DNA of 64,000 bases. Source: Paratractidigestivibacter faecalis (GTDB lineage Bacteria; Actinomycetota; Coriobacteriia; Coriobacteriales; Atopobiaceae). The stretch is from NCBI RefSeq assembly GCF_003416765.1, contig NZ_QSNG01000001.1, positions 708,742-772,741 of the forward strand, in the 5' to 3' direction. A program made the position numbers and the translations under genes. The notes under the pieces were generated by a model. That model saw only the letters and a program-made list of their open reading frames with translations, was not told the DNA's origin and made no database searches. Below are positions 21,985-25,005 of this stretch, piece by piece; position 1 is the stretch's first letter, and each line of letters opens with the position of its first letter.

Positions 21985-22014
21985 GTCTTGGCGCGGCGTC
22001 GGTCTGCATTTGCC

Positions 22015-22135
22015 TGCGTCAAAAATGCGAGGTTTAGAAGGGCTGGATGTCCGTTGAGGACGTGTGGGAGCACAAACCTCCAAATTCTGACGCAGCCCAG
22101 CGCTCGAAATTTTCAAACCTCGATTATTTGACGCT
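22015..22135. repeat. Three copies of a 21-bp motif, AAACCTC-N7/8-TGACGC
   Basis: Copies at 22015-22035 (inverted), 22074-22094 and 22115-22135 share AAACCTC at one end and TGACGC(A/T) at the other with an AT-rich centre. The first and third form a large inverted repeat; the third touches the stop codon of the P1 peptidase gene. The stretch between the leuS terminator and that gene has no convincing coding sequence. Confidence 0.75.
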
Positions 22136-23159
22136 AGAGGAACTCAGACAGGCTGTGATAGAAGGTGCCATCAAGGCCTCGCATGGGCTCGGCGGCAAGC
22201 AGCGAGTCAAGCACAGCCTCCTCAGTTGCCTCCGCACACGCGCGGAAGAGCCCATCTAATGCCGCCTCAGGCAGAACCTGCAGTCCAAGTGGCATCCCAT
22301 TGGCGGAGTCCGACATGTAGTTTGCCGTCGTGAACCCAATGAAGACGTCCCCGCTGCCGTGTCCCATATATGAGCCGCAGCGCACGAGCCCCACGGTCGC
22401 CCGCCTGATGACGCGCCCGAGCTGGCGAGAAGAGAGCGGCGCATCGGTGGCGACCACCACCATGACCGACCCTCGCTCGGGCTCCTCGGTCACGGCGAAC
22501 TTGCCGGCAATGCGCCTGCCGATGGGCTCACCGCAGACCGCGAGGTCTGGCATGCGCCCGAAGTTGCTCTGTACGAGCACGCCCAGCGTGTACGTCGCCC
22601 CACCTATCTCTATCAGACGAGAAGAGCTTCCGATTCCGCCCTTGAGCCCAAAGCAGACCGTGCCGCGGCCGGCTCCGACTGCTCCGTGGGCGAAATCGGT
22701 GCCAGCGGCATCGATGGCATCCAACACGTCCCTCCCGCCTACGGAGCGAGCACGGATATTGTTGATCCGCCCGTCGTTTGTCTCGCCTACGACGGGGTTT
22801 ATGGTGCCAGGCAGGTCAAGGCCATCCCGTTCGGCCTCGCGCAGCGCATGGGTGACCAGCGCATCTGCGACACGCCCCACGCAGAGGGTGTTGGTGAGCG
22901 CGATGGGCGTCTCCAGGCAGCCGAGCTCCTCCAGCTGCACGAGCCCACATGTCTTTCCGAAGCCGTTGAGCAGGTGCGCGGCTGCCACGGGCTTGCGTGC
23001 GTAGACGTTGCCCTCGCAAGGCACGATGACGGTCACGCCCGTGTGCGCGTCTCCATGATCAACGGTTGCGTGGCCCACACGCACGCCGGCCACGTCCGTG
23101 ATGGCGTTTCGCGTGCCGCGCGGCAGCTTTCCTACGCCAATTATGAAGTCCTTCGTCAT
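22134..23159 (-). CDS. P1 family (S58) peptidase, DmpA-like
   Basis: A 341-residue member of the self-cleaving DmpA/BapA aminopeptidase family, which removes N-terminal residues from small or beta-peptides. The N-terminus reads TDVAGVRVGHATVDHG and TGVTVIVP, followed by NGFGKTCGLVQLEELGCLETPI. The presumed nucleophile serine is in ERGSVMVVVATDAPL, where DmpA autoproteolysis occurs between Gly and Ser. The ATG at 23159 starts at the conserved domain; the longer frame upstream is not supported. The ribosome site is weak. It is divergent from the HTH-PASTA gene, 64 bases away, and its codon use is less GC-rich than the core genes. Confidence 0.88.
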   Translation of the reverse strand: MTKDFIIGVGKLPRGTRNAITDVAGVRVGHATVDHGDAHTGVTVIVPCEGNVYARKPVAAAHLLNGFGKTCGLVQLEELGCLETPIALTNTLCVGRVADALVTHALREAERDGLDLPGTINPVVGETNDGRINNIRARSVGGRDVLDAIDAAGTDFAHGAVGAGRGTVCFGLKGGIGSSSRLIEIGGATYTLGVLVQSNFGRMPDLAVCGEPIGRRIAGKFAVTEEPERGSVMVVVATDAPLSSRQLGRVIRRATVGLVRCGSYMGHGSGDVFIGFTTANYMSDSANGMPLGLQVLPEAALDGLFRACAEATEEAVLDSLLAAEPMRGLDGTFYHSLSEFL

Positions 23160-23223
23160 GGTTGTGCCGCTAATCGCATTGCTTTTTAGAATGGGATTGT
23201 GTACCCAAAAGACTGGAGTCGTC

Positions 23224-24012
23224 ATGTCTGACCCTGCTTCCGTACCTCGGGGACCCAAGCCGTTTGAAGATTTGCTTAAAAGTGTAGGCCTCTCTGAGCG
23301 TGAGGCCGACGCTGTTCGCACGGTTGTCCTAGATTTGACTGCCGCTGAAGCGGCCCCCCTTATCGGTGTTGGCGGATCAACCGTTGGCAGCTATCGACAA
23401 CGCGCCTACCAGAAGCTTGGCGTTGCCACTAAGTCTGAATTCCTTAGACTTCCTGCGTGCGCTGCTTGGCGGGAGAGTCTGAGACGAGAGAGGGCTTACG
23501 GCAAGGGTGCGGGGCCTGCGAATGACACTTTGAACTCTGGGACAAGATGTGAGACTCAAGTTTCTGATGCATCTGAGTCAAAGTGCCAAAGTGGAGGAGT
23601 TGAGCACGCAAGTGAAAAACTTCCTTGCGAGCGCACTCACGGTTTGGCTTTCCTCTTTTTGAAGTGTCTTGCTGTCAGCTTTGCCATGGTCTCCGCCTTT
23701 GTCACTCTTTTTGTCCTTCTCCAGCCCAGGTACAGTTATCTCGAATCTCCAAACGGCTGCATCTCTTCTGCCTATGGCGATGTTCCAAATGTGACGGGGA
23801 TGCGCGCCGATAATGCAGCCCTCGCATTGGCAAGCGAGGGCTATTATCCAGAATTCTCGACTTGTGCCTCATCTGATGCCCCCGGCACAGCTCTCTGCGT
23901 TGCAGAGGTGGGCGATATGACGGAGGCTGAGCAGGAACGGTCAAACGTGGCCTGGAAGGGGGCAGCGTGTCTGGCTATAACGTGTCTGGTGATTGGAGGG
24001 CTTTTGTCTTGA
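23224..24012 (+). CDS. Membrane-anchored LuxR-type regulator with a PASTA-like extracellular domain
   Basis: A 262-residue protein with an unusual order of parts. Residues 20-75 form a LuxR/GerE-like helix-turn-helix (LSEREADAVRTVVLDLTAAE, then STVGSYRQRAYQKLGV). A polar linker follows, then a membrane span (about 140-166), a PASTA-like segment (GDVPNVTGMRADNAALALAS, about 185-235), and a terminal span (243-262). Four cysteines lie outside the first span up to residue 225 and in the last helix. The predicted topology puts the HTH inside and PASTA outside. Codon use is distinctly less GC-rich than the core genes. The target is unknown; the divergent peptidase gene is a natural candidate. Confidence 0.7.
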   Translation: MSDPASVPRGPKPFEDLLKSVGLSEREADAVRTVVLDLTAAEAAPLIGVGGSTVGSYRQRAYQKLGVATKSEFLRLPACAAWRESLRRERAYGKGAGPANDTLNSGTRCETQVSDASESKCQSGGVEHASEKLPCERTHGLAFLFLKCLAVSFAMVSAFVTLFVLLQPRYSYLESPNGCISSAYGDVPNVTGMRADNAALALASEGYYPEFSTCASSDAPGTALCVAEVGDMTEAEQERSNVAWKGAACLAITCLVIGGLLS

Positions 24013-24202
24013 TCGAGGTCGCCGTTTAGCGACGCGTTCACGGGTCTATTGCCTCCGCTGAGGTGTGGCAAATGTGGCAAGTCTCGTTTTGCTACATATG
24101 TTGTCGTTGCTGCCGCATTACCTTTGCAAACAAGCCGGGGCGGCAAAAGAAGCTCTGGCTTAGCAACGTTGGTAGCTTTAAGTAGCTTTCGGAGGTGTAT
24201 CA

Positions 24203-24325
24203 ATGGTTCAGGGCCTGAGCGCGTGGGAGATTATCGGCATTTTTCTTGCCGTGGTTCTTGTTGTGGCGCTGGTCATCTTTGGGATTGTCCTTCTTTCCAG
24301 ACGAATCCTCGGAAAGCGCGATTAA
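24203..24325 (+). CDS. 40-residue single-span membrane peptide
   Basis: The frame reads MVQGLSAWEIIGIFLAVVLV, continues with a hydrophobic run, and ends SRRILGKRD. A strong GGAGGTG ribosome site lies 6 bases upstream. One helix (about residues 10-31) is followed by a basic tail, so the C-terminus should face the cytoplasm. It lies 190 bases after the HTH-PASTA gene and before the rimP promoter. No function is recognised. The 24013-24202 stretch shows no other gene. Confidence 0.6.
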   Translation: MVQGLSAWEIIGIFLAVVLVVALVIFGIVLLSRRILGKRD

Positions 24326-24383
24326 TCTCTGCTGCGTTGTGGTCATCTGGTGGAGAAGGGCATGCCTCTGGCTGGCGCAAAGT

Positions 24384-24412
24384 TTGACGTTAGCTGGGCA
24401 AATGCGTATATT
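24384..24412 (+). promoter_or_regulatory. Sigma-70-type promoter of the rimP-nusA-infB operon
   Basis: TTGACG (24384-24389), a 17-base spacer and TATATT (24407-24412) make a near-consensus vegetative promoter. The start should fall near 24419, about 80 bases before rimP. Confidence 0.85.
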
Positions 24413-24440
24413 GTTCACGTAATCGAAGTAGTTAACCGTA

Positions 24441-24475
24441 GGAAGTGGGGCTGCGTCACTGGCCCCGCTTCCTTT
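24441..24475 (+). promoter_or_regulatory. rimP leader hairpin
   Basis: GGAAGTGGGGC (24441-24451) pairs with GCCCCGCTTCC (24462-24472) followed by TTTC, within the short untranslated leader of rimP. Similar GAAGTGGG-type hairpins precede rimP/nusA in other bacteria, where premature termination and NusA feedback are thought to act. The role here is inferred. Confidence 0.6.
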
Positions 24476-24501
24476 CTGTATGTAGGTGAGAGGGAGGTCA
24501 C

Positions 24502-24987
24502 ATGCCCAAGGAGGGTGCCGAGAAGGGCATCATCGCCGCGCTCGAGGCCAAGGGGGCAGAGCACGGCATTGACATCGTCAACGTCGAGGTGGTGGGTGCC
24601 ACCAAGAACCCCTGCGTCCGAGTGCGCATCGACCACGCGGACGAGCAGGCCCCGACCATCACGCTCGACGAGGTCACCGCGGAGACCGGCTGGATCTCCG
24701 ACGCCATCGACGAGCTGGACCCCTTCCCGGCCGCGTTCACCCTCGAGGTGAGCTCCCCGGGCCTGGACCGCCCGCTGCGCCGCGAGCGCGACTTCGTCCG
24801 CTTCGCCGGCTCCGACGTCAGCCTCTCCACCACGGCCACCGAGGGGCGCCGCAAGTTCTCCGGGCGCCTGGAGGGCGTGGAGGACGGCCGCGTGGTCCTC
24901 ACCTGTGACGCAGAGCGCGTCGAGGTCCCCCTCGACGAGGTCAAGAAGTGCAAGGTCAGGCCCGACTTCTCCAACTCGGGCAAGTAG
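24502..24987 (+). CDS. rimP: Ribosome maturation factor RimP
   Basis: Assists 30S subunit assembly; 161 residues. The N-terminal domain includes GIDIVNVEVVGA and VRVRIDHAD, and the family motif LEVSSPGLDRPLRRERDFVRFAGSDV... joins it to the C-terminal SH3-like barrel (GRLEGVEDGRVVLTC). The ATG follows GAGAGGGAGG. It heads the classical rimP-nusA-infB-rbfA block, and nusA starts 18 bases later. Confidence 0.95.
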   Translation: MPKEGAEKGIIAALEAKGAEHGIDIVNVEVVGATKNPCVRVRIDHADEQAPTITLDEVTAETGWISDAIDELDPFPAAFTLEVSSPGLDRPLRRERDFVRFAGSDVSLSTTATEGRRKFSGRLEGVEDGRVVLTCDAERVEVPLDEVKKCKVRPDFSNSGK

Positions 24988-25005
24988 GAAGGAAGGATTC
25001 AACCC

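Follow-up and report, generated by a model that had tools for sequence, protein, structure and literature searches.

A GerE-type helix-turn-helix, one membrane span and a PASTA domain on a single chain in Atopobiaceae: a candidate membrane-tethered regulator beside a conserved operator-like repeat

The window analysed here is a stretch of 64,000 nucleotides of Paratractidigestivibacter faecalis (contig NZ_QSNG01000001.1, forward strand), a host genome of 2.1 Mb that is 99% complete. Between leuS and rimP-nusA-infB (names assigned by eye), the window carries a gene whose open reading frame and start codon lie where a previous, sequence-only reading had placed them. That reading had proposed the order helix-turn-helix (HTH), transmembrane span, PASTA-like domain, second transmembrane span, in a protein that would signal from the cell wall to DNA without a kinase. 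The gene and three of the four parts claimed for it are genuine. The features discussed below are the following:

23224-24012, plus strand: HTH-TM-PASTA gene, open reading frame of 262 amino acids whose frame is broken close to the 3' end (alignment of orthologues)
23290-23442, plus strand: GerE/LuxR-type helix-turn-helix, residues 23-73 (Pfam E=0.0014; fold like RcsB, NarL and DosR)
23665-23721, plus strand: the one genuine membrane span, residues 148-166 (19-residue hydropathy of 2.52)
23782-24026, plus strand: PASTA domain, in the frame of the gene to about 23957 and in another frame at 23958-24026
23947-24003, plus strand: apparent second transmembrane span, residues 242-260, an out-of-frame artefact (hydropathy, DNA alignment, reading of the tail)
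23958-23962, plus strand: run of G, one base short in the window compared with five orthologues (DNA alignment)
24027-24029, plus strand: stop codon of the orthologue frame
24064-24096, plus strand: candidate operator-like site, a 33-bp repeat TGTGGCAA-A-TGTGGCAA-N8-TTGCTACA (conserved, non-coding, past the stop)
24203-24325, plus strand: small one-span membrane peptide of 40 amino acids, a conserved partner (open reading frame of a type found in 9 of 11 single-PASTA loci)

By eye, leuS also lies upstream of the gene in five other genomes (G001, G141, G144, G029 and G113), and rimP, nusA or infB lies downstream in three (G113, G143 and G144). A second type of locus, between lepA and rpsT, was recognised by eye in genus g29. 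In the window, leuS is separated from the HTH gene by a divergent gene (22134-23159, minus strand) that starts 64 bp from it and was not seen there in the relatives inspected; from its appearance, we take it to be a P1/DmpA-type peptidase. An Rfam scan of 22000-25000 gave no match.

Pfam places a GerE domain at residues 23-73 of the window protein (E=0.0014, 18.6 bits against a curated cut-off of 23.5) and a PASTA domain at residues 187-222 (E=0.016, 15.6 bits against 23.2). From the window sequence alone, support for the HTH and the PASTA domain would be weak. The homologues are stronger: a survey of 140 family genomes yielded 18 proteins, encoded in 16 of these genomes, that combine GerE and PASTA on one chain, and GerE exceeds its cut-off in 17 of them, the window copy being the one below. 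The HTH of the sequence-only reading is upheld in this way, and its first membrane span coincides with the strong hydrophobic stretch at 148-166. Its PASTA domain fares less evenly: the profile does match where proposed, with a score under the cut-off in the window and passing scores in homologues, PASTA exceeding the cut-off in 8 of the 18 proteins and reaching E values between 2.7e-4 and 0.038 in the other ten.

Single-PASTA proteins were aligned as a set of eleven (window, L056, L026, L054, L055, L059, L057, L058, L035, L060 and L077), and seven proteins have two HTH domains (L065, L061, L062, L064, L066, L068 and L011). Some relatives carry two GerE and three PASTA domains (E<1e-14). Pfam scans of the 18 proteins found no kinase domain and no cytoplasmic domain other than the HTH. 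The closest full-length named relatives, L036 and L037, come from records labelled Olsenella, a genus of the Atopobiaceae; a search of contigs returned 18 loci, these two matching over nearly full length and 16 at the HTH region alone. In scans of two sets of 396 genomes, one drawn from the class and one from the phylum, proteins with both HTH and PASTA were seen only in three genera of the family, a distribution that rests on the 4 best candidates of each genome in the class scan and on up to 6 in the phylum scan, so that misses are possible. Further frames that match the HTH (e.g., L063, L067, L069 and L071) show no PASTA by eye.

Other combinations of these parts are also detected. The window's own genome encodes a protein (L002, G000:C1:153346-156534) in which two GerE domains and a hydrophobic span are followed by an exterior of another kind, to which PASTA does not match. 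The HTH-TM head seems to be combined with varied exteriors, and the family shows domain shuffling. Two proteins with three PASTA domains by Pfam and no HTH (L096:1495-2253, minus strand, and L098:1492-2253, minus strand) share their first PASTA type with the HTH proteins; in the class scan, at the best 4 candidates per genome, they were found in other genomes than the three-PASTA HTH proteins.

The second span of the sequence-only reading has a different origin. Residues 242-260 of the window frame are hydrophobic, more weakly than residues 148-166; no copy but that of the window has them, and there they arise solely in the frame that follows a one-base deletion in the G-run at 23958-23962. 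Read in another frame, positions 23958-24026 encode the conserved end of the PASTA domain, GGSVSGYNVSGDWRAFVLIEVAV, followed by the stop at 24027-24029; because of the deletion, this end is out of the frame of the gene, and in that frame the window copy lacks the last PASTA strand. No second span was found in the other single-PASTA proteins by alignment and hydropathy, L077 being left out of the hydropathy set on account of a frame break of its own nearby, and hydropathy detects one span in all aligned relatives. Hence, the candidate second span is rejected, and the corrected order is HTH-TM-PASTA.

The tail that follows the break was compared with three orthologues. It shares 18 of 23 residues with L056, with 11 of 17 base differences at third codon positions; for L054, the figures are 19 of 23 and 11 of 14. 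The comparison with L026 is weaker (14 of 23 residues; 7 of 17 base differences at third positions). The identities with L056 and L054, and base differences that lie mostly at third positions, indicate that the tail was under protein constraint until very recently, and the deletion is therefore either a mutation of very recent date or an error of the assembly.

Two more loci are broken, and in all three loci of the single-PASTA type concerned (window, L077 and G001) the frame breaks lie at or near G-runs. In L077 (G141:C10), an independent one-base deletion disrupts the PASTA end of that second copy. In G001, from the same genus, the HTH frame stops just past a GGGGG run, leaving a broken receptor; inspection by eye reveals a hydrophobic stretch in another frame after the break and no PASTA. 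Error, decay or switching by slippage may lie behind these breaks.

The window copy may accordingly be non-functional or carry an assembly error, and it is a real possibility, if short of probable, that the gene is already dead in its host: a young pseudogene doing nothing, from a family perhaps functional elsewhere. The loss of the PASTA end to a single base, the broken same-genus locus and the break in L077 speak for such decay. On the other side, the HTH, the span and most of the PASTA domain are intact, and the tail, when read in the frame of the orthologues, still agrees with L056 and L054 at 18-19 of 23 residues, as expected if the break is very recent or an error.

Structure prediction was applied to the orthologue L056, using 15 sequences. 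The model has a mean pLDDT of 80, with values above 90 in the HTH and mostly 84-92 in the exterior; the linker between HTH and span is of low confidence (pLDDT <50 at residues 92-109 and 136-145). The predicted exterior (154-238) aligns with PASTA domains of PknB, both 5e10 (Z 7.3, rmsd 2.2, 58 residues) and 2kui (Z 7.0, rmsd 1.7, 57 residues), Z values that are middling on the alignment tool's own scale, and the predicted HTH aligns with RcsB, NarL and DosR (Z 8.5-8.9). The model of the three-PASTA relative L065 is clearer: single PASTA domains reach Z values up to 10.8, and its exterior matches 5e12 with a Foldseek E of 1.9e-8. Three-PASTA relatives match the exteriors of PknB and PrkC, and an NCBIfam model of PASTA kinases also matches them, starting at the membrane region of the model and running through to its end. 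When the PDB was searched with a sequence profile, the HTH was matched and the PASTA domain was not. The PASTA structure that had been suspected for the outer segment is thus borne out by two predicted folds. Altogether, sequence comparison and modelling agree in placing a putative DNA-binding head, a membrane span and an exterior domain on one chain, and homologues, structure prediction and the absence of a kinase domain back the proposal of a kinase-free single-chain protein.

Two observations bear on the orientation of that chain. Of 15 aligned proteins, 11 carry more positive charge just ahead of the span than just behind it, with 4 ties and none reversed, and the N-termini of L096 and L098, which precede related sets of PASTA domains, resemble by eye twin-arginine signals with a lipobox. 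Flank charges and signal-bearing PASTA lipoproteins fit an arrangement with the HTH inside and the PASTA domain outside the cell, and are a fit rather than a proof.

A DNA site had been proposed upstream of the gene, near 23160-23223. The conserved operator-like candidate sits downstream instead, at 24064-24096, before the partner genes. The repeat is found past the gene in all six orthologous loci tested (window, L036, L037, L054, L059 and G001), and none of 2000 dinucleotide shuffles per locus equals it when the spacer is 1 or 2 and the third half-site lies at 7-9, a freer spacing that was picked after the L059 and G001 sequences had been seen and with the half-site taken from the window. 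With strict fixed spacing, the test failed in two of the six loci, where 1494 (L059) and 1031 (G001) of 2000 shuffles reach the score. Loci of the lepA type have a similar TGTAGCA...TTTGCCACA by eye. In G001 (L009/L136, minus strand), the repeat is kept despite the broken receptor, from which PASTA is missing; there it precedes a different secreted-looking protein of 221 amino acids and a membrane protein of 84 residues.

A wider regulon was also considered and rejected. The sole exact copy of the direct-repeat part in the genome is the one beside the gene, and TGTGGCAANTGTGGCAA with up to 2 mismatches occurs at 3 places, 1 of them exact (again beside the gene), compared with 1 for a reversed-pattern control. 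A version of the repeat with ten-base period gave scattered matches in 10 genomes, at or above control counts in most of them.

The partner genes are of two kinds. One is a one-span open reading frame of 40-41 residues, which follows the gene in nine of the eleven single-PASTA loci and was not found after L059 and L058. The other is a family of secreted-looking proteins that occurs at 6 places in 5 of the 140 family genomes, every one of them beside an HTH-TM-PASTA gene; it is absent from the window genome. Neither kind has a useful Pfam match, and the secreted family has none in NCBIfam or PHROG. A match to Bacteriocin_IId (E=0.1) was dismissed as chance.

Such linkage raises the question of what the PASTA domain might read. 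One answer is that the ligand is the linked secreted protein rather than the wall, the PASTA domain serving as a protein receptor that would form a private cassette together with the secreted protein and the small peptide. The restriction of the secreted family to these loci (6 of 6 places) and the occurrence of the small peptide at 9 of the 11 single-PASTA loci are in its favor. However, several loci, the window included, have receptor and small peptide with no secreted gene, and linkage suits a target gene equally well; we regard this answer as rather unlikely.

The reading towards which we lean, with some reserve, is that the protein is a membrane-tethered one-component transcription factor which uses PASTA to read a signal from outside the cell and controls the neighbouring genes. 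Its GerE-type HTH would lie in the cytoplasm and its PASTA domain outside, with a linker and one membrane helix between them. Its ligand might be a peptidoglycan fragment, a lipid-linked precursor or the neighbouring secreted protein. Ligand binding would alter the pairing of exteriors, two HTH heads would in consequence meet on the repeat (24064-24096), and transcription just downstream would change, whether up or down: that of the small membrane peptide and, in relatives, also that of the secreted protein. The simplest reading is that the logic of a PASTA kinase applies, an HTH taking the part of the kinase. The portion of PMC12189002 consulted describes activation of PASTA kinases by ligand-induced dimerisation, and that of PMC3145798 the binding of specific muropeptides by the PknB exterior. 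Wall binding by PASTA, with signalling from there to the HTH, is plausible.

PASTA might instead merely position the protein at sites of wall synthesis, either with the cytoplasmic part reading the signal or with the protein tethering DNA to the membrane. The requirement of the PknB exterior for localisation, as given in the part of PMC3145798 consulted, lends this option some support, but no cytoplasmic domain other than the HTH was found by Pfam in the 18 proteins and the conserved, promoter-like position of the repeat favors local control, and we regard it as improbable. Equally improbable is release of the HTH as a soluble regulator by an extracellular cut and a membrane protease: the long low-confidence linker predicted between HTH and span would suit it, but the stretches inspected in relatives show no protease in linkage with the gene.

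In the open-access literature searched, including the portions consulted of PMC7159879, PMC4601284 and PMC12189002, no GerE-HTH/TM/PASTA protein is described; as far as that literature goes, the parts are known and their combination is undescribed. Also new are the 33-bp repeat, the small membrane-peptide partner and the secreted family found only beside these genes. If PASTA drives a DNA-binding head directly, wall sensing would be reduced to one protein and one promoter, and PASTA ligands and transmembrane signalling could be tested with a simple reporter, free of the multiple targets that a kinase has. A route that leads from the wall (or from a dedicated secreted ligand) to a specific promoter through a single protein and no kinase, by way of a local operator and a private cassette of secreted protein and small peptide, is offered as a tentative proposal.

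Among known systems, three classes come closest to the protein. Work on PASTA domains has dealt with them as the sensors of Ser/Thr kinases and as components of penicillin-binding proteins. The PASTA kinases PknB, PrkC and StkP have, like the HTH-TM-PASTA proteins, one span and a PASTA exterior, but a kinase domain where the latter have a GerE-type HTH. Membrane-tethered regulators of the ToxR/CadC type consist of an N-terminal DNA-binding head, one span and an exterior domain, and ToxR has a nearby gene for a small membrane partner, ToxS. The HTH-TM-PASTA proteins resemble them in the N-terminal head, the single span, the exterior and the small membrane partner gene nearby; they differ in having a head of the GerE/LuxR type instead of an OmpR-type winged helix, and PASTA as the exterior. 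Lastly, the fold of the head is common to response regulators of the LuxR/NarL type such as RcsB, VraR and LiaR, the latter two of which respond to wall stress. Those regulators, however, are soluble and carry a receiver domain, whereas the HTH described here is N-terminal and membrane-bound.
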